In this document: piece after piece, positions 2,717-63,499 of the stretch | Numbering within the stretch: the first letter of the stretch is position 1 | How the letters are laid out: each line of letters opens with the position of its first letter | NCBI RefSeq assembly: GCF_020283565.1 | Contig: NC_060063.1 | Span: forward strand, 34,992,635 to 35,056,634 | Direction of reading: 5' to 3' | DNA length: 64,000 bases | Origin: Trifolium pratense | Taxonomy: Eukaryota > Streptophyta > Magnoliopsida > Fabales > Fabaceae | Notes under the pieces: generated by a model | What the model saw: only the letters and a program-made list of their open reading frames with translations | What the model was told of the DNA's origin: nothing | Databases searched by the model: none | Made by a program: the position numbers and the translations under genes

Positions 2717-3506
2717 TGTAACACCCAAACCCATTATTTATATATATTTCTACCTTTAGTAAAATCTTTTTCAAAATACGCAACGGAAAATCACATTTAA
2801 TTTATTGAATATCGGTTCGAGTATTACACTCCTCTATCAAAATAATACTAATGTAATTAATTAGTAAAAATAGTGTTTATACAAATCTTTGAATCAAATA
2901 ATGTATTTATTGATTATACAAAACAACCTAGACAATAGATTTTATATACAATATAAAACCCTTTCCCGTGTCACAATCAGAGCAAAGCTTCACCGACGAC
3001 TCGACATCGAATACCACAAAACCTGTAAATCTGGACCCCCAACGGTCCAGCACATAACACATAAAAGAGAGTTAGATAACATACTCAAAATATACAAGTG
3101 TAAGTAAAGGGTACTTAAACACTTCTTCATAAAACATGCATAATCATACATTGTACATATATATCACTATCATTCATGCATATTCATATATCATGCATAT
3201 ACTTCATTTATCACCTAATCAATCATTCACAAAATACATCAAACATATAGTTTCACGTCGTCTCGGACAATACCAAAACATCAACAAATACATTGTTCAG
3301 ATTATGGTCATGACGGACCCTGCATTGTTCATTTTATAGTCATGACGGACTCTGCTCCTCACATACGGATTAACAATCAACATTTACCAAGTATGTGTCA
3401 AACATCATTTATTATAAAATGCACACATAATCCCTAATGCAATCTAATGCTTCACATTCATGTTATGTCCTCTAGACACCTCTAATGCATGTGGTACCAT
3501 CGTCTT

Positions 3507-3814
3507 TATCAGAGTATTTCACCTCTGATATCCGTCTTTATCAAACAAATATAGTTCGATATCCTTCTTTATTGGACAAGCCAATATCCCTAAATATTCA
3601 TGATGCATGCACTCAAAACTCATGAATATATCCATCAACAATTATGGCATATAGCCCATCAACAATAACGTGGAACACTATCCAACGTCCGTCTTTATTA
3701 AGATAATCAATACCTTAATATCCGTCTTTATCGAATAACATAATTCGATATACTTCTTTATTAGAATAACATACTCTAATATCCTTCTTTATTAAGTTGA
3801 TTAACACCTTAATA
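3507..3814 (-). repeat. Hairpin array in E LTR
   Basis: Eight short inverted repeats lie in series: 3507-3530, 3539-3561, 3570-3586, 3594-3629, 3696-3720, 3729-3750, 3759-3781 and 3790-3814. Most start TAT, end ATA and are followed by TCCTTCTT, TCCGTCTT or TACTTCTT. The stem sequences differ from unit to unit (for example TATCAGAG/CTCTGATA, TATTGG/CCAATA, TATCGAAT/ATTCGATA), while the linker is nearly constant. One unit (3539-3561) has a single mismatch. The array recurs at 9205-9512 in the partner LTR. Confidence 0.85.
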
Positions 3815-4011
3815 TACTTCTTTGACATTTAAACAAACATCATCAACACAATCAACAACAATTATATTCCACACATATAATCAACAACTATCATCACAAT
3901 ACAATTAATCATGGTTATAAACACCTAATTGCATGTTAGGATACCTTAAATCCATGTTACAAGTGCCTAATTGCAGTTAAAACAACTATCAAAAAGTTGC
4001 TGTCACAATGC

Positions 4012-4132
4012 TGTTCGCTAAGCGAAGGCTTAGCGAAGGCTTAGCGAAACTCATCAGAGGATCACCTGCTCATGGCGAGCATGCAGCGAGCTGTTCGCCA
4101 CACGTTCGCTAAGCGAAGGCCTAGCGAACGTC
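4012..4132 (-). repeat. Palindromic cassette of TTCGCTAAGCGAA-type units in E LTR
   Basis: Repeated self-complementary units (TTCGCT-A-AGCGAA and GCTTAGCGAAGG variants) are interspersed with GCGAGC words. The partner LTR (about 9710-9845) has an extra unit. F and B carry unrelated GGCGGAAA-type repeats at the same place in their LTRs. Confidence 0.8.
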
Positions 4133-4895
4133 TCCTGTCAGGACAGTTCAAAACCTGCGTTTTCCACACCAAATCACCCAAAAATCCCATTTTTCATGTT
4201 ATAAACCCCAAATAAGTTTATATTCAAGCATAACAAGCATATCTAAACACAAAAGGACGGTTCATTTCACCGATCTACCATTTTTACTACGAAAAAGTAG
4301 AGATTCAACACTTTTACTCAAAACTCTGAAGAACACAAAGTTCTTGAGTTTAATCCTTTATAAATCTCGTTTTTAACCATTAGATTTGTTCATACATCAT
4401 GATAAGAGCATGTTAAACATGTTATGAACCTTAGAATCGATTTCCATTAAGAAAATCCATTCACAACTAAAACGAAAATGGGGTGGAGGAAGTTCGGGTG
4501 AGGAGAAATCGACATTCTCCCCTTCCTCGAGTCACCCACGAATATGAAATCTACTCTCTTACCTGGATTCGAAGAAAACACGACGAAGCTCTCGAATCCC
4601 TAGCTCTCCCTTTGCCCTAGCTCCTCAAGCTCTCTCTTCTCCTCTCAAGAACACAAAAGAAACATGAGAAATGAATTCTCATCCTCACTATGCCCTTATG
4701 GGCGCCTCCTCACACTCACAAGGCCCATTGGGCCTCAAGCCCAATTGGCTTGGCCCAATAACGCGTTAACTCACTTTACTCGCTTAATAACTAAAGTACT
4801 CGATAAATAACCCTAGTTATTAACTTAATAAAATGCCACGTTAAATAAAATATTTTAACACATAAAAATAATAATATGAAAATTGGGTCGTTACA

Positions 4896-7800: not shown

Positions 7801-8414
7801 ATAGAATTATGAGGTCTTCATGTTTGTACTCATAAAACGCATAGCAATTCAAATGCCTAGTAATCATCTAGCACATGTTATAAACAAACATATAACAAAC
7901 ACATACCAGGACACATTAATATCCTACTCTTCTCACCATTTTGAAAATTAATTTTCACTTATTCAAAAGAAAATAACTCTTTATTTTCACCAAAATCTTC
8001 AAGAAATAATATTAGTTTTTAAAATTATTTCAAATCATTACCACATGCAGTTTTATATCATGCCGGATCGTCACATGCAGTTTTATATCATGCCGGGTCG
8101 TCAACAATTAGCAAATAAGCATCAATCAACCAAGTTTAAACTACGCAATGGTTAAACTCTAATCATATACAACTATTATAAACATAGAAGTATAATACTC
8201 ACACAACTACTCACAAAAGAATGGATAATCTAATCCAATTCACATCACTCATAGTTCCTAAACGAACAACATGAATGATTTCACAAAACAAACACGACAA
8301 AATTGTTAGACAAACACGACTGACACACAATACTCACTTGGTCTGACTGCACAGACCTGCTCTGATCGACACATAACCCACACAGTCCGAAGACAACGGG
8401 GCTCTGATACCAAT
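4896..8414 (-). pseudogene. Degenerate pol remnant of element E
   Basis: No long frame survives. Three stretches match F's polyprotein in collinear order. The end next to the 3' LTR (4896-4940) matches F's terminus just outside its LTR. The frame at 6565-6756 encodes residues similar to F's linker between RNase H and integrase (shared LSLVCEV and FKVDENG). About 6870-6945 matches the RNase H region that follows RQRRW in F. A 30-bp unit is duplicated at 8042-8071 and 8072-8101. The rest is AT-rich, with scattered stops in all frames. GCGAGC/CGCTTAGC words like those of the LTR cassette recur near 7530-7640. Confidence 0.7.
8401..8412 (-). other. Primer-binding site of element E
   Basis: The minus strand reads TGGTATCAGAGC, complementary to the 3' end of initiator methionine tRNA. 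It lies two bases from the LTR start at 8415, which fixes this as the 5' LTR side and minus orientation. Confidence 0.9.
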
Positions 8415-10403
8415 TGTAACACCCAAACCCATTATTTATATATATTTCTACCTTTAGTAAAATCTTTTTCAAAATACGCAACGGAAAATCACATTTAATT
8501 TATTGAATATCGGTTCGAGTATTACACTCGTCTATCAAAATAATACTAATGTAATTAATTAGTAAAAATAGTGTTTATACAAATCTTTGAATCAAATAAT
8601 GTATTTATTGATTATACAAAACAACCTAGACAATAGATTTTATATACAATATAAAACCCTTTCCCGTGTCACAATCAGAGCAGAGCTTCACCGACGACTC
8701 GACATCGAATACCACAAAACCTGTAAATCTGGACCCCCAACGGTCCAGCACATAACACATAAAAGAGAGTTAGATAACATACTCAAAATATACAAGTGTA
8801 AGTAAAGGGTACTTAAACACTTCTTCATAAAACATGCATAATCATACATTGTACATATACATCACTATCATTCATGCATATTCATATATCATGCATTTAC
8901 TTCATTTATCACCTAATCAATCATTCACAAAATACATCAAACATATAGTTTCACGTCGTCTCGGACAATACCAAAACATCAACAAATACATTGTTCAGAT
9001 TATGGTCATGACGGACCCTGCGTTGTTCATTTTATAGTCATGACGGACTCTGCTCCTCACATACGGATTAACAATCAACATTTACCAAGTATGTGTCAAA
9101 CATCATTTATTATAAAATGCACACATAATCCCTAATGCAATCTAATGCTTCACATTCATGTTATGTCCTCTAGACACCTCTAATGCATGTGGTACCATCG
9201 TCTTTATCAGAGTATTTCACCTCTGATATCCGTCTTTATCAAACAAATATAGTTCGATATCCTTCTTTATTGGACAAGCCAATATCCCTAAATATTCATG
9301 ATGCATGCACTCAAAACTCATGAATATATCCATCAACAATTATGGCATATAGCCCATCAACAATAACGTGGAACACTATCCAACGTCCGTCTTTATTAAG
9401 ATAATCAATACCTTAATATCCGTCTTTATCGAATAACATAATTCGATATACTTCTTTATTAGAATAACATACTCTAATATCCTTCTTTATTAAGTTGATT
9501 AACACCTTAATATACTTCTTTGACATTTAAACAAACATCATCAACACAATCAACAACAATTATATTCCACACATATAATCAACAACTATCATCACAATAC
9601 AATTAATCATGGTTATAAAAACCTAATTGCATGTTAGGATACCTTAAATCCATGTTACAAGTGCCTAATTGCACTTAAAACAACTATCAAAAAGTTGCTG
9701 TCACAGTGTTGTTCGCTAAGCGAAGGCTTAGCGAAGCTGTTCGCTAAGCGAAGGCTTAGCGAAACTCACCAGAGGATCACCTGCTCATGGCGAGCATGCA
9801 GCGAGCTGTTCGCCACACGTTCGCTAAGCGAAGGCCTAGCGAACGCCTCCTGTCAGGACAGTTCAAAACCTGCGTTTTCCACACCAAATCACCCAAAAAT
9901 CCCATTTTTCATGTTATAAACCCCAAATAAGTTTATATTCAAGCATAACAAGCATATCTAAACACAAAAGGACGGTTCATTTCACCGATCTACCATTTTT
10001 ACTACGAAAAAGTAGAGATTCAACACTTTTACTCAAAACTCTCAAGAACACAAAGTTCTTGAGTTTAATCCTTTATAAATCTCGTTTTTAACCATTAGAT
10101 TCGTTCATACATCATGATAAGAGCATGTTAAACATGTTATGAACCTTAGAATCGATTTCCATTAAGAAAATCCATTCACAACTAAAACGAAAATGGGGTG
10201 GAGGAAGTTCGGGTGAGGAGAAATCGACATTCTCCCCTTCCTCGAGTCACCCACGAATATGAAATCTACTCTCTTACCTGGATTCGAAGAAAACACGACG
10301 AAGCTCTCGAATCCCTAGCTCTCCCTTTGCCCTAGCTCCTCAAGCTCTCTCTTCTCCTATCAAGAACACAAAAGAAACATGAGAAATGAATTCTCATCCT
10401 CAC
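8415..10403 (-). repeat. 5' LTR of element E, first segment
   Basis: This is collinear with 2717-4670 and carries the hairpin array (9205-9512), the palindromic cassette (9710-9845) and the donor-like splice site (intron side from 10277). Copia D interrupts it within the upstream promoter-like part, with CTCAC at 10399-10403 as the duplicated target. It resumes at 31275. Confidence 0.92.
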
Positions 10404-11414
10404 TGAAATTCTGGCACACTAGTGTTAAGATGTTGTACTCAACGCTTCACCACTATAATACACTTTTAATGCGTGAATCAATGATCCAACATCCAACCGC
10501 GCATACACAAGGAATAATAAACTTAACAAACTGAAAGTAAATTAACACAGTAATTTGTTAACCCAGTTCAGCATAAGCCTACTCTGGGGGATACCAATCC
10601 AGGAGTGAATCCACTATGATAGTATTAGTTTGAAGCCCTCAATAAACCTCCCGTTTATGACTTCTCACCTAATCACCACCCGTGCTATATCCTACCTAAG
10701 ACACACCTAGGTATGAGAACCTCCGCTCACCTCCTCTTGACCACAGCCACTGTGATCGTACAATTCTAGATTTAATATGTGAAGACACACTTCATAAAAC
10801 ACTCACACCACTTCCGTGCTTAAAAGCTTTGGAATGATATACACACACTATCTCCTTGCTTAGAAGCTCCAGAGATATTACAATGCACAAACACACAGTT
10901 CCTAGTCTAGTGGGAAATCAACACAAGACTTAGAACACAATAGACACAATACTAAAACCTAAACTCACGCTTTGTAAGACTCTAATCTGGTTTCAGTGAC
11001 TTGAACAATGGTGTCAACATTCTTTAAATAACCTTCACTAGCTCAGGCTAGGTCTTCAATTAGGCTTCAATAGCATAGCTTGATTAATGGTTCCTTCAAG
11101 GAATATTCTTCAATTAAAATGTTTTGTTTCCTTAACTTGAAGATCTGATTAGCAAGCAAAACTTGATCACGAGATCCATTAATAATTATGCGTGACAACG
11201 CTCCTTATCACAAACGAACATTTATTATGGATTCCATATTTAGAACTTAGGCGCGAGATCTCACCATACACAGGCCCGGCCTACTGGATGTGGTATCCAA
11301 TGTTGAAGCATTGTACCGAACATCTTGCTTAAACTGGATGGTGGAAGCATGTAGTTCCACATCAGGAAAGATCACATGTTTTAGCAAAATGATGCCAACC
11401 ATACAACGCCAACA
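10404..11414 (-). repeat. 3' LTR of copia D
   Basis: This LTR is 1011 bp and pairs with 30259-31269. A block at about 10555-10620 (TTAACCCAGTTCAGC ... CTACTCTGGGGGATACC) is shared with copia A's LTR at 1253-1320, although the surrounding sequence is dissimilar. Confidence 0.92.
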
Positions 11415-12428
11415 ATCTCCCCCTTTGGCAATTTTTGGCTAAAACATCCTAAGATAATTTCAACCGTTCTAAAGGGATACACAAGCTACCTTTTCTTCAA
11501 CTCAACGTAGGCACACAGTCAAGAAGTAAAGTAGGACATTTTAACATGCTTGTTTTAATAACCCCTCATATAAAAATAGCACATTTAATATGTATCAAAT
11601 TAGAACTTCAGAGGCATGCAACAGCGGAAGGATAAGTGTAACGACCTGATTTTTAGTAAATCGATATTTTATATATTTGCATATATTTTGGGTTAGTGTT
11701 AAATATTTATTTACGCGACCTATTATTATTTATCGCGAACATAAGTTTGTGAGCGAAACCTTTGTCGTGTTAGTGGGCTTGGGGCGTGTGAGAGCTTAAT
11801 GGGCTTAGGCTATTGGGCTTGGTTCATGACCATTGGAGAGTAGTATAAGTACCAAGTCAAACTAAGGAATAGTATCATAACTTGTTTTTCATGAGAAGTT
11901 AGAGTTTGTGAGCTTGAAGCAAAGCAAGAACCCTAGGAGAGCAAGAAGAAGAACTCGAGCAAGGAGAAGAGATTTAGAGGCCAAGAATCATCATTCAATC
12001 TAAGGTGAGAGTGGTTAAGCATAAGCTTGGGTGATCCAAGAGAGGGGAGGTGTCTAGCCTCCATTCCTAAACTCTCTCATCCAATTTCTTTGGGGTTTGG
12101 GTGAAATTTCTTTATCATAAACATGTCTTTTCATCTTAGTATGCTTAATGAACATCTAGGAGGGAATATGTATATGTTTGATGATGGTTTTGCATGTTTA
12201 TGCAACTTTGCTTATTTTGCAAGAAATTGACATGATTTTGAGTGTTTGATGTATTTGGATGTTTGGAAGGGATGATTAATGTTCCTTGATACCATATATG
12301 CTTGAATTAGCTGTTTATAAGAATTTATAACATGTTTAGATGTATTTTTGAGTGGATTCAAGGTTAAACCGCCTTATTGAAACTCAAGAACAGATATTTT
12401 TCTGGTGTAGTTCGCTAAGCGACCAAGA

Positions 12429-12444
12429 GTTCGCTGCAGCGAAC
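12429..12444 (+). repeat. Perfect 16-bp palindrome in G cassette
   Basis: GTTCGCTG is followed directly by its complement CAGCGAAC. It lies among TTCGCTAAGCGA-type units; another hairpin nearby has arms TCGCTAAG and CTTAGCGA. It corresponds to the cassette position in E. Confidence 0.8.
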
Positions 12445-12683
12445 AGGTTCGCTGAAGCTCGCCAAAGCTCGCCATGAGCAGGTGACTTCCGGGTATGGTT
12501 CGCCATGTCTCGCTAAGCCCTCGCTTAGCGAAGGCCTCAGTGACAGCAATTTTTGCTGATGTTTGTAAAGTGTGTGTATCCATGTATTTGGTTTCGTTTT
12601 GGTTTGGAATTATTATATGTTTAATAATTGTGTTGTGTAATGGCATTTATATAAAATGTCAAAGAAGTATATGTATTTTTGTA

Positions 12684-12912
12684 TATCGGGTTGTCCGATA
12701 AAGAAGAATATCAGTTTGTCTGATAAAGAAGTTTAATGGATTATGTTATCCATGTAGTGAGCAGTAGCTTCGTGCTAAGTGATTATCATATGTTTGGTAA
12801 ATGCATGGCATTCATAAATTCATGCATTATTTAGGGATATCAGACTTGTCTGATAAAGAAGGATATTGGACTTGTCCAATAAAGAAGGATATCAATGGTA
12901 AGTTCCTTGATA
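12684..12912 (+). repeat. Hairpin array in solo LTR G
   Basis: Inverted repeats lie at 12684-12700 (TATCGG/CCGATA), 12709-12725 (TATCAG/CTGATA), 12736-12753 (ATGGAT/ATCCAT), 12800-12828 (AATGCATG/CATGCATT), 12838-12855 (TATCAGA/TCTGATA), 12864-12881 (TATTGGA/TCCAATA) and 12890-12912 (TATCAA/TTGATA). The linker AAAGAAG or AAGAAGG follows most stems. This is the sense-strand equivalent of the E and F arrays. Confidence 0.85.
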
Positions 12913-14126
12913 AAGAAGATGGTACCACATGCATTAGTCGTGTCTAGGTTGGCATGACATTGAATGTTTGGCATTAGTCGCATTTGAGTAAATGTGCAAT
13001 TATGTGTTATGTGTTATGTGAGTTCTTTGTGTTGTCCGAAACGACGTGAAAATATATGGTTGTGTATTTGTGAGTATGTGTTATTTGGTGTATTGCTTAT
13101 TGAGGCATGTGTGTGAGTTAGTAATACGTGATAGGTTGAATATAGGTGCGTTTCTATATTCGTATGTATGTGATTATGTTTACTAACTCTCTACCTATTT
13201 GTTATGTGCTGGACCTTTGGGGGTTCAGGTATTCAGGTCGAGGTTTCGATCGAGCTTTAGCTGTAGATCGTTTTGGTGTGGAGCACTTTTGGTGAGGAGC
13301 TAGTGTAGGCTACCTTTGTATAGTTTTGTTAAGTTTAGTTTGGTTGAGATGTATATTAGTGCTCTGGTATTTTGTAACATCGAGTCGGGGATCGTTTGTA
13401 TTCCGTCGTATATCGATGTGAACATCTTAACTTATGTTTTATGTAAATGAATTATCTTTTGAACTATTTTGTTCATTGCTTTGAAAATCCTTTACTTAAT
13501 GTTTTCCGCTGCGACGTTTCGTGTCATGTGCACGATCGTTTTATAAAAATGTTTTCCGTAGCGCTCCGGCTACTTATCTTTAAAAAGTTTTTAAGATCAC
13601 GTTTTTTTAAGGGTAGTTAGTTCGGGGTGTTACAATAAGCACAAGCGCCTCACAGGAAATTGCCAATAGAGAGTATAAGATTCTCATAAAAGAAACACTG
13701 GGGAAAAATAAATTCCCTCAAAGCTGAGAAAAATAAATTCTCGGAAACAGATGATGCTTCAACATGCAGTAGCACATTGTGTGCTAAGCAAAAATAAATA
13801 TTGCTCCCCCTCAAAGGTAGAATCGAGTACCAAGTTCATGTTACTCCCCCTTAATTCATGCATAGGATTATTCAGATGATCCAGCATCTGGTGGCACATC
13901 AAGGCCTCAGCAACCTATTATGGCATACAATACAATAACTACTCCCCCTTTTTAGCCACAAAATAGACAAAATGGGAACTGCATAAAATAGTATCCAAGA
14001 GCAGTGCAGATAGTAGCAGAACAGAAAGTGCAGACAAAATATTACAAACCATGCACACTAGGTGCTAAATTCAGGGCTCAGCCCACAGACATGCAAAACA
14101 AAAATCCAAATAAAGAAACATCAGAA

Positions 14127-19285: not shown

Positions 19286-20088
19286 TGTAACACCCAAACC
19301 CCTTAACGCGTATTTATTGAATATAAATAAATAAAACACTTAAGAAAATTCAGGCGTCACATGATATAATACAAAACCACGGCATAATTAAATCAATCAT
19401 GCTAGCACAGCGGAAATTAAAAACGATATTTATCATAATGTATATCATACAATGATCATAATTGTTCACACAATATCCCTAGGCTCTAGGCCATATCAAC
19501 AAGGATATTATGTTTACAACCCAAAAGATAGGATTAGCAAAGTTAAATATGCCATCACGGGCTTAGATACAAATCAAGCGAATATCCCAACACGGTATTA
19601 CACCTAATCAGAGCAACTCTATACAACCCGTCAAAAGAGATATACAAATATATCTAAAGGAGTAGTCTAAGCTAAACTCCTCACCAAAAAGCGCACTACA
19701 CGAGCACGAGCAACCTCTAACTTTGATCGGGATCCTCAACCTGAGAATCTGAACCCCCAACGGTCCAGCACATAACACAAAGCATGAGAGTTAGATCACA
19801 TAATCAAAATATAAGTGTAAGCAAAAGGTACTTAAACACTCCTTCAACAACAACAAGCATATTCATAATTTATAAACATGCATCACCATTAACTACTCAA
19901 TTACAAGTTCTAAACATGTATAATCAAGTACCAAATAATCAATCTACAACTCATTACACTTAGCCAAATTATATGTCACATATCACTTATCAAGTAATGC
20001 ACACACATATAACCTAATGCAACTCTAATGCTTCAACTTCATGAATGTCAATCCTAGACATTACTAATGCATGTGGTACCATCTTCTT

Positions 20089-20299
20089 TATTAGAGTATC
20101 TCACCTCTAATATCCTTCTTTATCGGATAAATATAATCCGATATACTTCTTTATTGGAATATCCAATATCCTATTTAATTCATGAATGCATGTATATGTG
20201 TTCATGAATTCACTCACAAATAATTAGCATAAGCTCTTCATTTACTATGTGGAACACTATCCAACATACTTCATCATTAAGATTTAACAAAACCTTAAT
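20089..20299 (-). repeat. Hairpin array in F LTR
   Basis: Stems lie at 20089-20112 (TATTAGAG/CTCTAATA), 20121-20143 (TATCGGAT/ATCCGATA), 20152-20168 (TATTGGA/TCCAATA), 20177-20210 (AATTCATGAA/TTCATGAATT) and 20276-20299 (ATTAAG/CTTAAT), with TCCTTCTT or TACTTCTT linkers after the first two. Compared with E, both arms change together: E has TATCAGAG/CTCTGATA where F has TATTAGAG/CTCTAATA. It is repeated at 26710-26920. Confidence 0.87.
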
Positions 20300-20457
20300 A
20301 TTCTTCATTTATACTTCATACATGATTAACAATCATTATAAGCTTCAACAAGCATCAACAAGCATCAACAATCATCAACAATCATGTAAGAATAAGCCAC
20401 TGATTGAAAATACATGCAAAGGAAGACAGCAGATGAAAAATTGGTGAAAACTGCAGT

Positions 20458-20651
20458 ATTTCCGCCTGGGGCGGAAATTTTTTACGTTTGAGGCGTAAGT
20501 TTACGTTTTAGGCGCAAAAATTTACGTTTGAGGCGTAAGTTTACGTTTTAGGCGCAAAAATTTACGTTTGAGGCGCAGAAAAGTCTGAAAGGTTGGCTGC
20601 TCACTGCTCTTCCGTTTCAGGCGGAAATTATTGCGCCTGAGGCGGAAAAAC
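20458..20651 (-). repeat. GGCGGAAA/TTTACG cassette in F LTR
   Basis: ATTTCCGCC (20458-20466) and GGCGGAAAT (20470-20478) form a 9-bp stem. Tandem units of about 40 bases alternating TTTACGTTTGAGGCG and TTTACGTTTTAGGCG follow, then a second TTTC/GGCGGAAA pair. It is repeated at about 27079-27272. It occupies the place of the TTCGCTAAGCGAA cassette in E. Confidence 0.83.
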
Positions 20652-21378
20652 ATGCGTTTTCTACACAAAAACGCCCAAAAATCTCATTTTTCATGTTATA
20701 AATCCCAAAAGAGTTTGTATTCAAGCAAAACAAACATATCTAAACACAAAAGGACGGTTCATTTCTCAGATCTACGCCATAAACATCGAAAAAGTAAAGA
20801 TTGACACTTTTTCATCAAAACTCTCAAGAACACAAAGTTCTTGAGTTTAATCCATTAGAAAGCTCGTTTTAACCATTATTTCCGTTCATTAATCATGTTA
20901 CAAGCATGTTAAACATATTAAGAACCTTAGGAACGATTTCCATCAAGAAAATCCATTCCAATCTAAAACGAAAATGGGGTGGAGGAAGTTCGGGTAAGGA
21001 GAAATCGACATTCTCCCCTTCCTCGAATCACCCACGACTATGGAACCTACTCTCATACCTGGATTCGAAGAAAACTCGAAGATTTGATCTTGATTCTCCT
21101 CACTTTCCTTTGCCCTAGCTCTTGAGCTCTCTTCTCTCTCCAACTCTCTCTCAAGAACACAAAACTATGAGAAATGAAATGTTCTCTTCTCCCCCTCATG
21201 GCCATATGGCGCCACCTCACACACACAAGGCCCATTGGGCCTCAAGCCCAATTGGCTTGGCCCAATAACACGATAACTCTCACTATCGCTTAATAACTAA
21301 AGTATTCGATAAATAACTCTAGTTATTAACTTAATTAAAATTTCTACGTTAATAAAATATTTTAACACATAAAAATTA

Positions 21379-24300
21379 TTAATTTGAAAATTTGGTCGTT
21401 ACAACTCTACCCTCCTTAAAGAATTTTCGCCCTCGAAAATTACCTGGAAATAACTCTGGATACGAACTCATCATCTTGCTCTCCAATTCCCAAGTCGCAT
21501 TCTCACCAGCGGGTCCTCCCCATACCACCTTCACCGAGGCGATATCCTTGTTTCTCAACCTCTTCACTTCTCTACCTTCGATCCTCAAAGGCACAACCTC
21601 GACCGTTAAGTCATCCCTCACTTGAACATCATCCGATTCAATCACATGTGACGGGTCTCTTACATATTTCCTCAATTGTGACACGTGAAACACATCGTGC
21701 AAATTCGCCAATGATGGCGGCAAAGCAATCCTATACGCCACTTTCCCCACTCTTTTCAAAATCTGATAAGGACCAATAAACTTCGACGTCAACTTCCTCG
21801 ACTTCAAAGCACGTCCAATTCCGGTAGTCGATGTAACTCTTAAGAAAACATGATCACCTTCTTGAAATTCAATGTCCTTCCTCCTCTTGTCATGATAACT
21901 CTTTTGACGACTCTGAGACGCTTTCATCTTCTCTCTAATCATTCTAATCTTTTTCGTAGTCTCTTGCACAATCTCCGGACCAAGAATCATACTCTCTCCG
22001 GATTCAAACCAACAAAGCGGTGTCCTACACCTCCTCCCATACAAAGCCTCAAAAGGTGCCATTCCAATACTCGAATGAAAACTATTGTTGTACGTGAACT
22101 CGATCAACGGCAAACACGAATCCCAACTTACTCCTTGCTCCAAAACACAAGCTCTCAACAAATCTTCCAAAGATTGTATCGTCCTTTCCGATTGATCATC
22201 CGTTTTAGGATGATAAGCCGAACTCAACCTCAACTTAGTCCCTAAAGCCTCTTGCAAACTTTCCCAAAATCTCGAAGTAAACCTCGGATCTCGATCCGAA
22301 ACAATACTCGACGGAATACCGTGCAACTTCACAATTTGCTCCACATAGATCTCGGCCAACTTAGGCACCAAGGTACCTTTCTTAATAGCAATAAAATGCG
22401 CACACTTCGTCAAACGATCCACTACCACCCAAATCACTTCATAACCTTTCGTAGTCTTGGGTAAACCTCCCACAAAATCCATCGCAATACTATCCCACTT
22501 CCATTCCGGGATAAACAAAGGTTGCAACAAACCAGACGGTTTCTGATGCTCAATCTTCGACTTCTGACACACTAGGCAAGCATAAACAAACTCAGAAATT
22601 TGCCTCTTCATTCCTGGCCACCAAAATAACTTCTTCAAGTCTTGATACATCTTGGTTACTCCCGGGTGAATACTCATTCCACTCCTATGACCTTCTTCCA
22701 AAATCATCTTCTTCATCTCGGGCACATCGGGCACGCACACTCTTCCATGAAATCTCACAACTCCATTCTCGTCAACTTTGAAATTAGCTTCTTTTCCTTC
22801 CTCAACTACTATTGCCAACTTCTCCATTAACTTCTTATCCGTCTTTTGACATTCTTTGATATTCTCCAGAAAAGGATTCGTCAACTTCAACATTCCCAAT
22901 TTAACACTCTTAGGAGTCACTTCACATACTAGACTCAAGTCTCGAAATTCTTCAATCAACTCTAACTCTTTCACCATTAGTGATGACATGTGCAACGATT
23001 TCCTACTCAACGCATCGGCCACCACATTAGCTTTTCCGGGGTGATAACTCAAATCAAAGTCATAGTCCTTCAAAAATTCGAGCCATCTTCTTTGTCTCAT
23101 ATTCAACTCCTTTTGGTCAAACAAATACTTCAAACTCTTGTGATCACTAAAGACTTCAAACTTCGATCCATACAAGTAATGTCTCCACACCTTCAATGAA
23201 AACACAACTGCGGCTAATTCAAGATCGTGTGTCGGATAGTTCCTCTCGTGAACCTTCAATTGTCTCGACGCATACGCTACCACTTGACCTTTTTGCATAA
23301 GCACACCTCCTAGTCCCATCTTCGAAGCATCACAATACACGACGAAAGATTCCTTAGCATCCGGTAAAATCAACACAGGCGCGGTAGTCAACCTCTTCTT
23401 AAGCTCTTGAAAACTTTCTTCACACTTCACATCCCAAACAAACGCTTGATCCTTCCGAGTCAACTGCGTCAAAGGCAAAGCCAACTTCGAAAATCCTTCA
23501 ATGAACCTTCTATAATAACCGGCCAATCCAAGAAAACTTCTTATCTCAGAAACAGACTCTGGCGTTCCCCATTGCAATACGGCATCAACTTTCGCTGGGT
23601 CAACCGCTATTCCTCCACTTGAAATCACATGACCAAGAAAACTTACTTCTTTCAACCAAAATTCACACTTCGACAATTTGGCATACAACTTCTTCTCCTT
23701 CAAAACTTGCAAAACAATCCGCAAATGCTCCTTATGTTCCTCTTCGGACTTTGAGTAAACTAAAATATCATCGATGAATACCACTACAAACTTATCCAAG
23801 AATGAATGAAAAATCCTATTCATGTACTCCATAAAAACACCAGGTGCATTGGTCACACCAAAAGGCATCACCGAATATTCATAATGACCATACCTCGTCC
23901 TAAAAGCAGTCTTTGGTATATCCTCCGTTTTCACTCGAATCTGATGGTATCCGGATCTCAAATCAATCTTACTAAAAACGCAAGCTCCAACCAATTGATC
24001 CATTAAATCATCTATCCTCGGAAGTGGATACTTGTTCTTGATCGTCACTTTGTTCAACTGTCGGTAGTCAATACACAACCTCATACTCCCTTCTTTCTTC
24101 TTAACCAACAACACAGGTGCACCCCACGGCGATACACTAGGTCGAATAAACTTCTTCTCAAGTAGTTCTTCTAGTTGCTTCTTCAACTCATTCAACTCTG
24201 ACGCTGACATTCTATACGGTGCCATAGATATCGGACTAGTACTAGGTACCAAATCGATCGTAAACTCTACTTCTCTCTTCGGCGGTACATCTGACACGTC

Positions 24301-25770
24301 TTCCGGAAATACATCGGGAAATTCACAAACAACCGGTAACTCTTCCACCTTAACTTCACCTTCCATCTTCAAGGATGCAAACAACGCATACACCTCTACA
24401 GGTTCCTTCAACGACTCTACTACTTCCTTCTTACTCATCAAATGCAAACTCTCCTCCGGTTTAGGAAATACAACGGTCTTCTCGCAACAATTGATATGGA
24501 CTCGATTAAATATCAACCAGTTCATACCAAAGATAACATCTATTCCACTAAGTTGGATACACACTAGGTCCATTCCAAAGTGTCTACCAAACACGGTTAC
24601 GGGACAGTCACGACATACGAGACGGGTAGTTACAGAACCATTAGCAGGAGTTTCTATTTCCATACGACCAGACATTTCTGACACAGGTATACTAAGACGC
24701 TTCATGCAATCAACGGATATAAAAGAATGTGTTGCTCCCGTATCAATAATCGCAATTAAAGGAGTGTTATAGATGAAACACGTACCTCTAATGAGATTAT
24801 CTCCCTGATCCGCATCATCTCCACTCAAGGCAAACACCTTTCCCATAGTCTTCTTCGGCTTCTTGCACATAGGACTCTTGTGACCCTCTTCGCCACAATT
24901 GAAACAAGTCACTTTCACTTGACACACATCCGACTTGTGTCCCAATCTCCCACAATTAAAACACTTGTCCACCTTCTTTGGGCACTCATAAGACTTATGA
25001 CCCAACTCACCACACTTGTAGCATTGTCCACCACCTCTCTTCTTTCCCCCACTATTCTCAACAACTTTCTTCCCCTTGTCACCATAGGGCTTCCCACGGT
25101 CTTGACCTCTTCCTCTTTTGTCACTCATGGTCTTGTAGTAGTTAGTCTTGGCCTTTCCATCATCATCACAAATACGGCACTTATCCACCAAAGTTGCAAA
25201 GTCTCGGATTTGAGAAAATCCGATAAGATGCTTGATGTCCGGGCGCAACCCACTTTCAAACTTGACACACTTAGCCTCCTCAGCGTCCACGGTGTTGTAG
25301 TGTGGACTAAACGCACAACGTTCTTCAAACTTCGCGGAATACTCCGCCACAGACATGTTCCCTTGCTTGAGCTCCATGAACTCCACCACTTTCTTGTTCC
25401 TAATATCAGCCGGAAAGTACTTCCTCAAGAACTCTCCCTTGAACATCTCCCAAGTGATTACCACACCACCAATTCCCATCCTTAGCTTAGCATTCTTCCA
25501 CCACTTGTTAGCTTCCTCACGAAGTACATAAGTACCCAAGGTCAACTTACTCTCCTCGGTACACCTCATAGCCTCAAAGACAATCTCAACTTCCTCTACC
25601 CACTTGACAGCAGCATCTGGAGCATAGCCTCCAGTGAAAAGTGTCGGATTATGCCTCATGAATCTCTCTAACCTCATCTCATCTTCCCTCCCGGGTTGAT
25701 GATCTCTAGCCACGATGTTGGTCAAAGTAGCTATCGCATCTGCCATCTGATTGTTAGCCCTTCCAGCCAT
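21379..25770 (-). CDS. Ty3-type gag-pol polyprotein of F, intact
   Basis: The protein is about 1463 residues from the ATG at 25770 (MAGRANNQ); the open frame extends 12 bases upstream without ATG. Domains in order: retrotransposon gag (about 40-200); three CX2CX4HX4C knuckles (about 248-310: [14 protein letters not shown] and two more); aspartic protease with DTGATHSFI (about 342); reverse transcriptase with the FIDD form of the active site ([11 protein letters not shown], about 665); RNase H ([13 protein letters not shown], about 811); integrase HHCC zinc site (about 1030-1070) and DDE core ([15 protein letters not shown], then Glu in SERT, about 1092-1193). A C-terminal segment (VKVVW...ATWELE...YPELF, about 1410-1450) resembles the chromodomain-like tail of Tekay-type chromoviruses. 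Gag and pol share one frame with no stop, and the last codons lie inside the 3' LTR. It is the best candidate here for an active element. Confidence 0.95.
21404..21417 (-). other. Polypurine tract of F
   Basis: The minus strand reads AAGGAGGGTAGAGT immediately before the 3' LTR (TGTAACGACC). Here it also encodes codons near the end of gag-pol. The equivalent in E is AAGTGGGGGAGAGT. Confidence 0.8.
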
Positions 25771-25890
25771 GATCCTGAACAACCAACCAATCCAAGAACA
25801 GACTTAGAAAGGTAATATCAACAGTGTTATCTCTACACAAGTTGAATATATGGGTAACTAATCCTAATTGGTTCCACATGAACCGACCTT

Positions 25891-25902
25891 GCTCTGATAC
25901 CA
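25891..25902 (-). other. Primer-binding site of F
   Basis: The minus strand reads TGGTATCAGAGC, complementary to initiator methionine tRNA, four bases from the 5' LTR start at 25907. The leader between it and the gag ATG at 25770 is about 120 bases. Confidence 0.92.
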
Positions 25903-25906
25903 CTAT

Positions 25907-28024
25907 TGTAACACCCAAACCCCTTAACGCGTATTTATTGAATATAAATAAATAAAACACTTAAGAAAATTCAGGCGTCACATGATATAATACAAAACCA
26001 CGGCATAATTAAATCAATCATGCTAGCACAGCGGAAATTAAAAACGATATTTATCATAATGTATATCATACAATGATCATAATTGTTCACACAATATCCC
26101 TAGGCTCTAGGCCATATCAACAAGGATATTATGTTTACAACCCAAAAGATAGGATTAGCAAAGTTAAATATGCTATCACGGGCTTAGATACAAATCAAGC
26201 GAATATCCCAACACGGTATTACACCTAATCAGAGCAACTCTATACAACCCGTCAAAAGAGATATACAAATATATCTAAAGGAGTAGTCTAAGCTAAACTC
26301 CTCACCAAAAAGCGCACTACACGAGCACGAGCAACCTCTAACTTTGATCGGGATCCTCAACCTGAGAATCTGAACCCCCAACGGTCCAGCACATAACACA
26401 AAGCATGAGAGTTAGATCACATAATCAAAATATAAGTGTAAGCAAAAGGTACTTAAACACTCCTTCAACAACAACAAGCATATTCATAATTTATAAACAT
26501 GCATCACCATTAACTACTCAATTACAAGTTCTAAACATGTATAATCAAGTACCAAATAATCAATCTACAACTCATTACACTTAGCCAAATTATATGTCAC
26601 ATATCACTTATCAAGTAATGCACACACATATAACCAAATGCAACTCTAATGCTTCAACTTCATGAATGTCAATCCTAGACATTACTAATGCATGTGGTAC
26701 CATCTTCTTTATTAGAGTATCTCACCTCTAATATCCTTCTTTATCGGATAAATATAATCCGATATACTTCTTTATTGGAATATCCAATATCCTATTTAAT
26801 TCATGAATGCATGTATATGTGTTCATGAATTCACTCACAAATAATTAGCATAAGCTCTTCATTTACTATGTGGAACACTATCCAACATACTTCATCATTA
26901 AGATTTAACAAAACCTTAATATTCTTCATTTATACTTCATACATGATTAACAATCATTATAAGCTTCAACAAGCATCAACAAGCATCAACAATCATCAAC
27001 AATCATGTAAGAATAAGCCACTGATTGAAAATACATGCAAAGGAAGACAGCAGATGAAAAATTGGTGAAAACTGCAGTATTTCCGCCTGGGGCGGAAATT
27101 TTTTACGTTTGAGGCGTAAGTTTACGTTTTAGGCGCAAAAATTTACGTTTGAGGCGTAAGTTTACGTTTTAGGCGCAAAAATTTACGTTTGAGGCGCAGA
27201 AAAGTCTGAAAGGTTGGCTGCTCACTGCTCTTCCGTTTCAGGCGGAAATTATTGCGCCTGAGGCGGAAAAACATGCGTTTTCTACACAAAAACGCCCAAA
27301 AATCTCATTTTTCATGTTATAAATCCCAAAAGAGTTTGTATTCAAGCAAAACAAACATATCTAAACACAAAAGGACGGTTCATTTCTCAGATCTACGCCA
27401 TAAACATCGAAAAAGTAAAGATTGACACTTTTTCATCAAAACTCTCAAGAACACAAAGTTCTTGAGTTTAATCCATTAGAAAGCTCGTTTTAACCATTAT
27501 TTCCGTTCATTAATCATGTTACAAGCATGTTAAACATATTAAGAACCTTAGGAACGATTTCCATCAAGAAAATCCATTCCAATCTAAAACGAAAATGGGG
27601 TGGAGGAAGTTCGGGTAAGGAGAAATCGACATTCTCCCCTTCCTCGAATCACCCACGACTATGGAACCTACTCTCATACCTGGATTCGAAGAAAACTCGA
27701 AGATTTGATCTTGATTCTCCTCACTTTCCTTTGCCCTAGCTCTTGAGCTCTCTTCTCTCTCCAACTCTCTCTCAAGAACACAAAACTATGAGAAATGAAA
27801 TGTTCTCTTCTCCCCCTCATGGCCATATGGCGCCACCTCACACACACAAGGCCCATTGGGCCTCAAGCCCAATTGGCTTGGCCCAATAACACGATAACTC
27901 TCACTATCGCTTAATAACTAAAGTATTCGATAAATAACTCTAGTTATTAACTTAATTAAAATTTCTACGTTAATAAAATATTTTAACACATAAAAATTAT
28001 TAATTTGAAAATTGGGTCGTTACA
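25907..28024 (-). repeat. 5' LTR of Ty3 element F
   Basis: This LTR is 2118 bp, the same length as the 3' LTR, with a constant offset of 6621. The hairpin array lies at 26710-26920, the cassette at about 27079-27272 and the TGGGCY cluster at 27849-27887. It should hold the promoter that drives gag-pol. Confidence 0.93.
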
Positions 28025-31269: not shown

Positions 31270-31274
31270 CTCAC

Positions 31275-31481
31275 TATGCCCTTATGGGCGCCTCCTCACA
31301 CTCACAAGGCCCATTGGGCCTCAAGCCCAATTGGCTTGGCCCAATAACGCGTTAACTCACTTTACTCGCTTAATAACTAAAGTACTCGATAAATAACCCT
31401 AGTTATTAACTTAATAAAATGCCACGTTAAATAAAATATTTTAACACATAAAAATAATAATATGAAAATTGGGTCGTTACA
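31275..31481 (-). repeat. 5' LTR of element E, second segment
   Basis: This is the far end of the LTR broken by copia D. It includes the TGGGCY cluster (31308-31345) and the terminal GGGTCGTTACA. Together with 8415-10403 it gives one full LTR of about 2.2 kb. ATGCA at 31482-31486 closes element E. Confidence 0.92.
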
Positions 31482-32190: not shown

Positions 32191-32676
32191 TGTAACACCC
32201 AAACCCATTATTTATATATTTCTACCTTAGTAAAATCTTTTTCAAAATACGCAACGGAAAATCACATTTAATTTATTGAATGTCGGTTCGAGTATTACAC
32301 TCCTCTACCAAAATAATACTAATGTAGTTAATTAGTAAAAATACTTGTTTATACAAATGTTAAATCAACTAATGTATTTATTAGCTATACAAAACAACCT
32401 AGATAAGGAGACTCTATATACATATAAAACCCCTTTTCCCGTGTCACAATCAGAGCAGAGCTTCACCGACGACTCGACATCGAATACCACAAAACCTGTA
32501 AATCTGGACCCCCAACAGTCCAGCACATAACACATAAAAGAGAGTTAGATAACATACTCAAAATATAAGTGTAAGTAAAGGGTACTTAAACACTTCTTGA
32601 TATTCATGCATAATCATACATTATACATATACATCACCATCATTCATGCATATTCATATATCATGCATATACTTCA

Positions 32677-34418
32677 TGAAGTAGCAAAGTTTTTCACAAG
32701 AAAGGGGGGTTTGAATTGTGAACCTTTAAAAATTGTCCTTTTAAAAATTAGATATCAAAACATACGTTAGAATGATCTCAGAATAAATAACATAAGTTAG
32801 GAGAATGATCTTAGAACGATCTCTGAGCTGCAAACAAAAACAATAAGTGATTTGTGTGTGTTAGTGTTTGCACAAAATTAATATGAGTTTAAGGGAGAGA
32901 AGAGACACAATAATTTTATCCTGGTTCACCCCTTAATAGTATGGGCTACTCCAGTCCCCACGCTCCTGTGAGATTGTCCACTAAGAGATTCTACCGATCT
33001 CAAGATACACTTCTTCTTTGATCTAATCCAAGATCACAATCTTCCAAGCTTCACTTGCTTGATCTACCTAAGTCTTTCCTAGACTTTATGAGGTGTCACT
33101 CAATCAATAGTTACGTATTGACTTGAGCCAATCTTTACAATATTGATAATGGTTTGGATCTTAAAGCTTTCTCACTCAAACTAAGTTGAAAAGCTAGTTA
33201 CAATAAAATCTCTCTTTGTTCACTCAAAATGGATACTGATCCTAGTATGATATTACAATATATGGAGTGAAAGAGATCTTCAAAGAAGAGCTTGAAAACT
33301 TGTATCACAAAGACAAGTAGATTGATTGTTGTAGCTAAAACTCTTGCTCTTCAATGTTGCCAAAGCCTTCCTTTTATAGTTGAACCTTGAGTCTTCAGTT
33401 CCTTGGTCCCAAAGGAAGTTCTCCAACGGCTAGTTGATTCAAAATAGACAGCTCATGCTGAATTGTTGAGTGGATAAGCTCAAACTGATCTTTCTCAGAA
33501 CGTTCTCCCTGCTGTTCTTCATATTTTCACTTAAAAGGGCCAAAATGACAGCTTGCAATGGGCTGTAGCTAGTTGTTCATTGCTTCCTCACCAAGTATAT
33601 CCGTTATAGATCATTTAGGCACGTTTTGGCCAGCTGTAGATGAGCTTGCAACTTCAAAAGCAAAGGACAGTCATTCTCAGCATCATTCTGAGATCGTTCT
33701 CTAATCTGGGCGAATTTTGCACTTGATCTTCAAATGGAGAATGATGCAGACCTGTGGTCAGCTGTAGTGTGAAGGGAATGCAGCTGTGATGTCCTTGCAT
33801 AACTATTCACTTGTCCTTTCCATGTACTTCTTTTTCTTGATTAAGAATTAATCTCTTGGAGAATGTTCATTAAATAATGACATTGAAGGTACATGACAAC
33901 TATGAGTTGAATGTGTGTTGTCTCATCCTTATTGGTCTATGTAATTCTTGTCCAAATATTCTTGATACACCTGATTAGATGATGCCTTGAGAAATTATCA
34001 TGTTGCACATGCTTGATCATTAACTTTGTCCAAAGAGGAAAGTCACTTTCTTTCCAACTTATTCCTTGCCTTAAATGTTCATGAACTGTTGTGATCTTGT
34101 GAGTTAAAACCAAGATAAAGTGCTTCTTTGTCTTGTATATGGTTGACTTAATGAAATAAGTGCTTTTGCATTTATTCTTGTTCATAAGAAGAATGTTGCA
34201 ATTAAACCAGAGATCATTCTCAGACTGATCCTGAAGCTTCTCTTTTTGCCAAAACATAATGAATATCATTGAGATTAGAAGCTTAATTGTTCCTGACTAA
34301 TTAAAACACTCAAGAGCACTTGTTAGATAACAATGAGATCAGAATTACATTTAAAATATAATTAAGATGTTTGTTATCTTTAAAACATCAAATTGGGATT
34401 TTGCATTTTGCCTCAACA
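32677..34418 (-). repeat. 3' LTR of copia C
   Basis: This LTR is 1742 bp. A TATA box (CTATAAAAG on the minus strand) is at 33371-33380. A block about 380-450 bases downstream (32919-33000: GGACTGGAGTAG, then GTGAACCAGGATAA in the sense direction) resembles the one in A and D. A 110-codon frame at 33937-34269 has no recognisable product. Confidence 0.93.
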
Positions 34419-42382: not shown

Positions 42383-44124
42383 TGAAGTAGCAAAGTTTTT
42401 CACAAGAAAGGGGGGTTTGAATTGTGAACCTTTAAAAATTGTCCTTTTAAAAATTAGATATCAAAACATACGTTAGAATGATCTCAGAATAAATAACATA
42501 AGTTAGGAGAATGATCTTAGAACGATCTCTGAGCTGCAAACAAAAACAATAAGTGATTTGTGTGTGTTAGTGTTTGCACAAAATTAATATGAGTTTAAGG
42601 GAGAGAAGAGACACAATAATTTTATCCTGGTTCACCCCTTAATAGTATGGGCTACTCCAGTCCCCACGCTCCTGTGAGATTGTCCACTAAGAGATTCTAC
42701 CGATCTCAAGATACACTTCTTCTTTGATCTAATCCAAGATCACAATCTTCCAAGCTTCACTTGCTTGATCTACCTAAGTCTTTCCTAGACTTTATGAGGT
42801 GTCACTCAATCAATAGTTACGTATTGACTTGAGCCAATCTTTACAATATTGATAATGGTTTGGATCTTAAAGCTTTCTCACTCAAACTAAGTTGAAAAGC
42901 TAGTTACAATAAAATCTCTCTTTGTTCACTCAAAATGGATACTGATCCTAGTATGATATTACAATATATGGAGTGAAAGAGATCTTCAAAGAAGAGCTTG
43001 AAAACTTGTATCACAAAGACAAGTAGATTGATTGTTGTAGCTAAAACTCTTGCTCTTCAATGTTGCCAAAGCCTTCCTTTTATAGTTGAACCTTGAGTCT
43101 TCAGTTCCTTGGTCCCAAAGGAAGTTCTCCAACGGCTAGTTGATTCAAAATAGACAGCTCATGCTGAATTGTTGAGTGGATAAGCTCAAACTGATCTTTC
43201 TCAGAACGTTCTCCCTGCTGTTCTTCATATTTTCACTTAAAAGGGCCAAAATGACAGCTTGCAATGGGCTGTAGCTAGTTGTTCATTGCTTCCTCACCAA
43301 GTATATCCGTTATAGATCATTTAGGCACGTTTTGGCCAGCTGTAGATGAGCTTGCAACTTCAAAAGCAAAGGACAGTCATTCTCAGCATCATTCTGAGAT
43401 CGTTCTCTAATCTGGGCGAATTTTGCACTTGATCTTCAAATGGAGAATGATGCAGACCTGTGGCCAGCTGTAGTGTGAAGGGAATGCAGCTGTGATGTCC
43501 TTGCATAACTATTCACTTGTCCTTTCCATGTACTTCTTTTTCTTGATTAAGAATTAATCTCTTGGAGAATGTTCATTAAATAATGACATTGAAGGTACAT
43601 GACAACTATGAGTTGAATGTGTGTTGTCTCATCCTTATTGGTCTATGTAATTCTTGTCCAAATATTCTTGATACACCTGATTAGATGATGCCTTGAGAAA
43701 TTATCATGTTGCACATGCTTGATCATTAACTTTGTCCAAAGAGGAAAGTCACTTTCTTTCCAACTTATTCCTTGCCTTAAATGTTCATGAACTGTTGTGA
43801 TCTTGTGAGTTAAAACCAAGATAAAGTGCTTCTTTGTCTTGTATATGGTTGACTTAATGAAATAAGTGCTTTTGCATTTATTCTTGTTCATAAGAAGAAT
43901 GTTGCAATTAAACCAGAGATCATTCTCAGACTGATCCTGAAGCTTCTCTTTTTGCCAAAACATAATGAATATCATTGAGATTAGAAGCTTAATTGTTCCT
44001 GACTAATTAAAACACTCAAGAGCACTTGTTAGATAACAATGAGATCAGAATTACATTTAAAATATAATTAAGATGTTTGTTATCTTTAAAACATCAAATT
44101 GGGATTTTGCATTTTGCCTCAACA
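42383..44124 (-). repeat. 5' LTR of copia C
   Basis: This LTR is 1742 bp and nearly identical to 32677-34418 at a constant offset of 9706. The TATA box CTATAAAAG lies at 43077-43086 on the minus strand and should start transcription of gag and pol. Confidence 0.93.
43077..43086 (-). promoter_or_regulatory. TATA box of copia C 5' LTR
   Basis: The sense strand reads ACTATAAAAG, a strong plant TATA match, well inside the LTR with several hundred bases of LTR downstream for R and U5. Confidence 0.65.
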
Positions 44125-44129
44125 CTTCA

Positions 44130-45759
44130 TTTATCACCTAATCAATCATCCACAAAATACACCAAACATATAGTTTCACGTCGTCTCGGACAATACCAAA
44201 ACATCAATAAATACATTGTTCAGATTATGGTCATGACGGACCCTGCGTTGTTCATTTTATAGTCATGACGGACTCTGCTCCTCACATACGGATTAACAAT
44301 CAACATTTACCAAGTATGTGTCAAACATCATTTATTATAAAATGCACACATAATCCCTAATGCAATCTAATGCTTCACATTCATGTTATGTCCTCTAGAC
44401 ACCTCTAATGCATGTGGTACCATCGTCTTTATCAGAGTATTTCACCTCCGATATCCGTCTTTATCAAACAAATATAGTTCGATATCCTTCTTTATTGGAC
44501 AAGCCAATATCCCTAAATATTCATGATGCATGCACTCAAAACTCATGAATATATTCATCAACAATTTTGGCATATAGCCCATCAACAATAACGTGGAACA
44601 CTATCCAACGTCCGTCTTTATTAAGATAATCAATACCTTAATATCCGTCTTTATTAGAATAACATAATTCTAATATCCTTCTTTATTAAGTTGATTAACA
44701 CCTTAATATACTTCATTTATACTTCATACATGATTAACAATCAATTAACGATTAGCAATGAGCATTATAAGCATCAACATGCATCAACAATCATGTAAGA
44801 ATAAGACACTGATTTGAAAATACATGCAAAGGAAGACAGCAGATGAAAATTTGTGAAATCTGCAGTATTTACGTCTGGGGCGGAAATATTTACGCCTGGG
44901 GCGGAATATTTACGCCTGAGGCGGAAATGTTTACGCCTGGGGCGGAAACACTTCTGAAAGACTGGTTGCTCACTGTTCTGCCGTTTCGGGCGAAAATTAT
45001 TGCGCCTGGGGCGAAATACTTGCGTTTTCTACACAAAAACGCCCAAAAATCCCATTTTTCATGTTATAAATCCCAAAAGAGTTTGTATTCAAGCATAACA
45101 AACATGGATGAACACAAAAGGACAGTCCATTCCTCAGATCTACATCATAAACATTGAAAAAGTAAAGATTGAACACTTTTTCATCAAAACTCTCAAGAAC
45201 ACAAAGTTCTTGAGTTTAATCTTTCATAAACTCGTTTTTTACCCATTAAATCCGTTCATTAATCATGTTAAAAGCATGTTAAACATATTAAGAACCTTAG
45301 GAACGATTTCCATCAAGAAAATCCGATCTAAGCTAAAATGAAAATGGGGTGGAGGAAGTTCGGGTGAGGAGAAATCGACATTCTCCCCTTCCTCGAGTCA
45401 CCCACGAATATGAAATCTACTCTCTTACCTTGGATCGACGAACTCACGAAGATCGCTCCTCGAATCCCTTCTCCAAGCTCTTGCTCTAGCTCCATGCTCT
45501 CCCTTCTCTCTTCATTCTCCCAAAAACAAGAAAAATGAACTCTTTCTCTCACTACAAGGGCTAAATAGCGCCCCCCTCTAGCTCACAAGGCCCAATGGGC
45601 CTCAAGCCCAATAGCTTGGCCCAACTCACGTTAACTCTCACTAACTCACGCGTTAACTAAAACTCTCGATAAATAACTTAAAGTTACTATCTTACTTAAA
45701 AACCACATCACCAAATAATTAAACACTTAAATAGTGAATAATAAATTTGGGTCGTTACA
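44130..45759 (-). repeat. Solo LTR B, larger segment with hairpin array and cassette
   Basis: The hairpin array is at 44430-44708. Its sixth unit (44652-44675) has arms TATTAGAAT and ATTCTAATA where E has TATCGAAT and ATTCGATA, so both arms changed together. The first unit has lost one pair (TATCAGAG/CTCCGATA). The cassette at 44867-45019 is built of GCCTGGGGCGG units. The TGGGCY cluster is at 45588-45624. Confidence 0.87.
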
Positions 45760-52440: not shown

Positions 52441-52442
52441 AT

Positions 52443-55323: not shown

Positions 55324-55328
55324 GTTTT

Positions 55329-56868: not shown

Positions 56869-56869
56869 G

Positions 56870-56883
56870 TGGTATCAGAGCCA
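56870..56883 (+). other. Primer-binding site of copia H
   Basis: TGGTATCAGAGCCA follows the LTR after one base. It is complementary to the 3' end of initiator methionine tRNA and sets plus orientation. Confidence 0.9.
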
Positions 56884-63494: not shown

Positions 63495-63499
63495 GTTTT

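Follow-up and report, generated by a model that had tools for sequence, protein, structure and literature searches.

To our knowledge, it is largely unknown how plant Ty3-type retrotransposons mark their genomic RNA for packaging. The stretch of red clover (Trifolium pratense) DNA analyzed here, 64,000 nucleotides long and referred to as the window, raises this question in a particular form. It contains nested LTR elements, and the LTRs of four of them (E, F, B and G) carry a series of small hairpins. The initial annotation described the stems of these hairpins as changing on both arms together, and took such paired change as the trace of either selection for a folded RNA or repeated correction in which one arm serves as the template for its partner. 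Which of these kept the arms complementary, and what the hairpins might do for the element, are the questions considered here.

The elements that carry the arrays differ in coding content (Table 1). Element F is of the Ty3 type (Metaviridae): Pfam domains of gag, protease, RT, RNase H and integrase follow one another in this order, and direct LTRs, a 5-bp target duplication and a primer site, TGGTATCAGAGC, which we take to be that of tRNA-Met, are also present. No chromodomain was detected at the C-terminus of its integrase at E<=0.001 (only SH3_Tf2-1 and Integrase_p58_C, window positions 21382-22203), and F was therefore not assigned to the Tekay-like chromoviruses. Element E spans 2717-31481. 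In its internal region, matches to F are confined to scraps at F residues 866-1022 (in and just after the RNase H domain), and pieces of F Gag gave no match. L131, a G-type element of 5.1 kb with 2.0-kb LTRs and a 1.1-kb internal region, has a frame of 315 residues that includes gag and zinc knuckles, and the pol pieces of F gave no match to it. L131 and L132, the G-type elements examined, are Gag-only retrotransposons; L132 has three array copies and two gag regions in a row. The array is thus kept in autonomous (F), Gag-only (L131) and apparently gag-less (E) elements.

Table 1. Hairpin arrays and the elements that carry them (window coordinates).
Feature	Position	Strand	Remarks
Hairpin array, left (3') LTR of element E	3507..3814	-	7 standard units and 2-3 single-copy hairpins
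Hairpin array, right (5') LTR of element E	9205..9512	-	Same as left
Hairpin array, left (3') LTR of element F	20089..20299	-	One degenerate unit, single-copy hairpins, 3 standard units
Hairpin array, right (5') LTR of element F	26710..26920	-	
Hairpin array, solo LTR B	44430..44708	-	One unit fewer than E (unit loss, AAGACG linker left)
Hairpin array, lone LTR G	12684..12912	+	Most divergent of the four (E, F, B, G)
Element F	19286-28024	-	Ty3-type; 2.1-kb LTRs, uninterrupted gag-pol frame, 5-bp target duplication
Left LTR of element F	19286..21403	-	99.86% identical to right LTR; target duplication ATTTC
Right (5') LTR of element F	25907..28024	-	PBS TGGTATCAGAGC adjoining (25891)
gag-pol frame of F	21379..25803	-	gag, zinc knuckle, protease, RT, RNase H, integrase, SH3_Tf2-1
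Candidate 5' splice site, F 5' LTR	27671..27682	-	Prediction, cut between CAG and GTATGAGAG; upstream of array; corresponding sites in E, B and G
Left LTR of element E	2717..4895	-	TGTAACGACCC...GGTGTTACA; target duplication ATGCA (5 bp) here and at right end, 31481
Right LTR of element E	8415..10404	-	Remainder ~31270-31481; split by inserted element H (1014-bp LTRs)
Solo LTR B, main part including array	44124..45759	-	
Solo LTR B, distal part	32191..32677	-	Target duplication TATCA; split from main part by element K
Lone LTR G	11637..13634	+	No second copy in window

Two further pairs of direct repeats were observed in the window. The copies at 55328-56870 and 61954-63496 are 1543 bp long and 100% identical, with a primer-site motif starting at 56870, and probably belong to a very young LTR element of another family. 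Those at 1110-2122 and 52441-53453 are 98.9% identical and are possibly the LTRs of an element within which most of the nested insertions lie.

The sense strand of the arrays is the minus strand in E, F and B and the plus strand in G. A standard unit, in sense, consists of the linker AAGA(A/C)G with two further bases (mostly GA, AA or TA), TAT-Y-R.., a loop, ..Y-R-ATA and the next linker. The linker had been described as nearly constant, and in 106 copies three 8-base forms, AAGAAGGA, AAGAAGAA and AAGAAGTA, indeed make up 320 of 346. By one pattern, these copies carry 3 to 7 standard units each. Slots e, f and g are single-copy hairpins between the upstream and the downstream units; slots 6, 7 and 8 are the three downstream units, which are followed by a conserved ATGGTACCACATGCATTAG.

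A GC-rich, palindrome-rich module lies just upstream of the array (~4014-4131, 9712-9845, 12409-12532, 20458-20640 and 44870-45010; also in L053). It differs wholesale between subfamilies, with a TTCGCTAAGCGAA type, a CGCCYCAGGCG type and a GAGCCTGGCTCAG type between flanks that are alike. LTR B (44124-45759) looks mosaic, being 92% like E from the array onward and 79% upstream, where its GC-rich module, like the bases that precede the array, is F-like.

Inverted repeats of this density are not expected by chance. Perfect ones (arms of at least 7, loops of 3-24) number 6 in each array of E, 4 in each array of F, 4 in B and 3 in G; 200 dinucleotide shuffles of each array gave 0.5-0.7 on average and at most 2-4. 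All six arrays exceed the shuffle mean and equal or exceed the largest of the 200 shuffles, which rejects chance and places an array at every position first annotated in E, F, B and G. The arrays of E reach the window maximum of 5 inverted repeats per 300 nt (mean 1.08); a second stretch tied at 5, 7751-8200 (starts 7751-7901), lies in the internal region of E.

The family was sampled in the 413.6-Mb red clover assembly, in which a 28-base 3' motif of the array has 1,692 sites with up to 3 mismatches (reversed-pattern control, 0). We collected 106 copies, i.e., 97 of 100 listed sites of this motif, 3 other loci and the six window copies, and these gave 74 distinct 3' halves, 27 of G type and 47 others. 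They are not a random sample, because they were picked by the exact 28-base motif, which covers the last bases of slot 8, and nearly all come from one chromosome. The structure tested was defined on E. L066 and L054, whose array is partly replaced, were left out of the R-scape-like, divergence-bin, tree-event and flanking-control counts, and the outlier L109 out of the G part of the divergence-bin counts; twelve copies found by a mutated motif were inspected and kept out of all counts. Rfam families, including hammerhead, gave no match in the whole window or, separately, in the left LTR of E. The 3' motif had 0 matches in viral contigs and in genome contigs, and unit-pattern matches in viral contigs (18 stretches, one match each) were taken as chance.

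Other identities of the array were discarded. A repeated polyadenylation signal (AATAAA after each stem) was rejected, since the base preceding ATAAA changes with the stem pair and many units have a G there. A TATA box directly upstream was rejected as well: F, B and G have TATA-like sequence at this place, E and L051 lack it, and it is thus not shared by all subfamilies. The structured insertions from transposons described for enod40 appear unrelated to the array, as far as the accessible part of that report goes (PMC10578108).

Pairing in the stems is kept through changes of sequence. In 50 distinct units, the Watson-Crick fraction of pairs 4-7 is 0.825, versus 0.511 after arm permutation (largest of 2000, 0.660), with each unit's start set by best pairing, which raises the observed value somewhat. 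E and F differ by 56 substitutions, and 7 double, 2 one-sided and 1 broken pair changes separate them, against null means of 1.4, 4.6 and 15.0. Across 14 subfamily representatives, 97.1% of cells are paired and double changes occur at 10 of 53 pairs, in 6 of 7 helices; controls with the partner slid 1-3 columns gave at most 2 such pairs. RNAalifold, to which the structure was not supplied, recovered 6 of 7 helices and 8 pairs with double changes. Pairwise among 7 representatives (overlapping comparisons), broken pairs are depleted in 16 of 21 comparisons and doubles are in excess (p<=0.05) in 8.

Individual hairpins illustrate the pattern. The orthologous units E7 and F7 have five differences, which amount to two double changes and one G.U to G-C. 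A single-copy hairpin reads ACGTtGGA/TCCACGT in some copies, ATGT../..ACAT in others and AAGT../..ACTT in L053, this third state being alignment-dependent and unpaired in the alignments of the R-scape-like and divergence-bin tests. The initial annotation had offered three examples. The change from TATCAGAG/CTCTGATA to TATTAGAG/CTCTAATA holds, with one pair going from C-G to U-A. The second, ATATTCATGA versus AATTCATGAA, holds in part: one pair does change from T-A to A-T, but 10 of 14 rows have no pairing at the outermost E pair. The third, TATCGAAT in E versus TATTAGAAT in B, is a unit loss and no paired change: L043 and L074 carry both units in series, which implies that B lost one.

The phylogeny-aware check was made on 45 distinct copies with a tree built from non-stem columns and a null of 300 runs. 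Double pair-keeping changes number 10 (null mean 1.5, largest 7), one-sided pair-keeping changes 20 (null mean 25.7) and pair-breaking changes 20 (null mean 54.8, smallest 37). Two flanking LTR stretches were treated by the same event procedure, with E's predicted fold as structure and 100 runs each. The downstream stretch gave 6 doubles versus 2.7 (largest 7) and 94 breaks versus 105.9 (smallest 79), and is thus itself slightly rich in double changes; the upstream stretch gave 2 versus 1.1 (largest 4) and 70 versus 31.9 (largest 43), and is a poor control because it crosses the module that differs wholesale between subfamilies. Neither stretch has a depletion of breaks, and the depletion is therefore particular to the array. 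Selection for a folded RNA, the first of the two processes proposed at the outset, is supported by this excess of doubles and depletion of breaks.

Other results weigh against it. Pair by pair the signal is weak, and the R-scape-like test of 34 copies reached E<=0.05 at only 1 of 48 pairs; this is because the E type differs from the rest by several double changes at a time, and many double changes trace to the branch leading to the E subfamily. The paired fraction overall in this test was 0.947 versus 0.767 in the null (largest of 150 runs, 0.848). In the 14 representatives, further standard pair types are no more frequent than in shuffles, of which 481 of 500 equal or exceed the observed value, and the 10 pairs changed on both sides compare with 7.5 in shuffles, a modest excess (8 of 500). 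A unit-level tree test was weak in events (1 double versus a null mean of 0.34), with a paired fraction of 0.929 versus 0.831 (largest of 500 runs, 0.918). The excess of doubles is not significant in 13 of the 21 pairwise comparisons. The same A.C mispair turns up repeatedly at slot 7 pair 5, a CpG position, and one slot 8 A.C is common to six copies. The slot 7 mispair was observed in copies of different subfamilies (e.g., L034, L039, L043, L051, L058 and L071), and perhaps reflects an old polymorphism or methylated DNA that was deaminated more than once.

The place of the changes on the tree is informative. Of the double, one-sided and breaking events, 9, 8 and 3 fall on internal branches and 1, 12 and 17 on terminal ones (45 copies). 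Double changes are thus mostly internal and breaks mostly terminal, and we conclude that pairing is kept through replication and lost after insertion. On these grounds we consider it likely that the LTRs of this red clover Ty3-type family contain a folded-RNA hairpin array under selection, and we infer that selection acts on the element's sense RNA in its folded form.

What such an RNA would do may be approached from its position. In F, predicted splice signals lie on either side of the array: a candidate 5' site upstream, and CTAAC/AG candidates downstream, near the LTR end. By one pattern, the 5' site was found at 34 of 60 fetched loci; 19 of the 26 loci without it are of G type, which carries AGGTGAGAGTGG (window copy), a splice-site variant outside the pattern. 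The array would then sit in the long leader of the unspliced RNA. Being downstream of the conserved candidate 5' site, it would thus mark unspliced genomic RNA, if splicing occurs. The hairpins would space and expose the single-stranded purine linkers for Gag zinc knuckles, and the array would be a multivalent cis signal for packaging or dimerisation. Serial stem-loops with conserved pairing, which characterize packaging signals of the retroviral type (Psi), are found in the array. This role is suggested because of position and analogy; a repeated cis signal on the unspliced RNA, most likely bound by Gag, is the role that we tentatively place first.

A role in RNA processing or translation is also possible: as part of a long LTR intron or leader, the array may decide between splicing and retention, or govern export or the passage of ribosomes. 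A folded RNA is selected in this case too, and the two proposals share the structural claim and compete on role alone; we regard control of splicing or translation as about as likely as a Gag-binding signal. Besides the candidate splice signals on both sides, the composition of F is in keeping with processing, as the stretch before the candidate 5' site is purine-rich and T-poor (T 0.20) and the interior of the candidate intron is T-richer (0.36). F also has 59 ATGs between LTR position 300 and the first gag-frame ATG, taken as the gag start, and 51 of the 59 are inside the candidate intron. The AAGAAG linker resembles purine-rich splicing enhancers. On the other hand, E keeps its array without matches to F Gag, and perhaps has nothing of its own to translate. 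For BARE, separate RNA pools, spliced and packaged, are described (PMC3735527), which again counts for processing.

That single-stranded DNA (cDNA) or a DNA cruciform was selected, and not RNA, is unlikely. Both strands fold, and in nine arrays the folding z-scores (sense, -2.5 to -5.5; antisense, -3.4 to -7.0) do not single out the sense strand. The departures from Watson-Crick pairing on internal branches are G.U in 6 cases, A.C in 2 and other in 1, a small excess of G.U over A.C (terminal branches: 8, 8 and 9). The inherited wobbles nevertheless fit sense RNA, i.e., G.U at slot 7 pair 5 in E-type copies and U.G at slot 8 pair 4 in L043, L044 and L079.

Arm-to-arm templated correction, the second process raised at the outset, would have a polymerase switch within the hairpin and copy one arm onto the other, with no function involved. 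It agrees with stems that are often perfect, and with two adjacent G units whose only differences are two double changes. It predicts doubles at all divergences, however, and the divergence bins disagree (overlapping comparisons, so that the counts are not independent events). Below 8% divergence, 676 comparisons (352 non-G, 324 G) contain 0 double, 270 one-sided pair-keeping and 556 broken changes. At 8-20% (373 non-G comparisons) there are 455 double, 644 one-sided and 1089 broken changes, and above 20% (265 non-G comparisons) 1438, 606 and 896. Where subfamilies differ on both sides of a pair, one-sided intermediates segregate at that same pair: U-A, U.G or C-G at slot 8 pair 4, and G-C, G.U, A.C or A-U at slot 7 pair 5. 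Copying between arms also predicts no slowing of stems, and at divergences above 0.2 the stem rate is 0.18 versus 0.32 in loops. The loops, said to drift freely, do change faster than stems in all divergence bins except the lowest of the non-G set, below 1%, where stems are not slower (0.0074 versus 0.0029), as decay after insertion would lead one to expect. The lack of doubles below 8%, the intermediates and the slow stems therefore favor selection on pairing, and correction is improbable. In chromosomal DNA it is rejected by the divergence-bin data; a version acting only during reverse transcription may be conceived.

A tandem set of transcription-factor sites is a still weaker candidate, and we hold it to be very improbable. 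Enhancer repeats are found in other plant LTRs, such as the BII boxes of Tnt1, and the tandem units and constant linker of the array recall them. Such repeats conserve the sequence of the unit; in the array, the linkers are conserved, but the variable part is the stem, in which complementarity is kept and not sequence. Unit duplication, loss and shuffling alone, which might mimic paired change, account for the E versus B example among the three and agree with the varying number of standard units, but double changes occur in the single-copy slots e, f and g too, and this largely refuted explanation is hardly credible.

The preferred reading, a selected array of RNA hairpins, was compared with known systems. 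No tandem covarying hairpin array in LTRs was found in the literature by titles and abstract starts, with subscription journals thinly covered, which agrees with the earlier remark that no named LTR feature of this design is known. A close likeness is to the leader of MMTV, in which Gag binds a single-stranded GGAGAAGAG purine loop among serial small stem-loops (SL1-7, Psi) with exposed purine-rich single strands (PMC8096270). The MMTV purines are upstream of the major splice donor; in the clover family, many of the hairpins repeat a single unit in tandem, joined by a constant linker, inside a plant LTR, and here Gag binding is putative. BARE2, a Gag-less parasitic relative among plant LTR elements, is described as keeping dimerisation and packaging signals (PMC3735527). 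BARE belongs to another superfamily (Ty1/copia), and the word 'hairpin' is absent from the main text of that paper. Stem-loops of long R regions in retroviral LTRs differ in that the study concerned, in its accessible part, was unable to model plant Metaviridae LTRs and describes no tandem array. Retrozymes likewise have structured RNA in plant retroelements (PMC4918200); the array family differs in having no hammerhead in the whole window or the left LTR of E.

It is conceivable, if somewhat doubtful, that the array is a tandemly amplified packaging signal, in which one hairpin and purine-linker unit was multiplied into a multivalent Gag-binding leader that autonomous, Gag-only and apparently gag-less relatives keep. 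If so, each type of relative would renew its stems by compensatory change. With the array motif at 1,692 sites and shared by members of all three kinds, the question of the packaging mark becomes directly testable. In addition, compensatory evolution can be read in this family within a single genome, from changes on internal branches, where elements replicate, and on terminal branches, where inserted copies decay.
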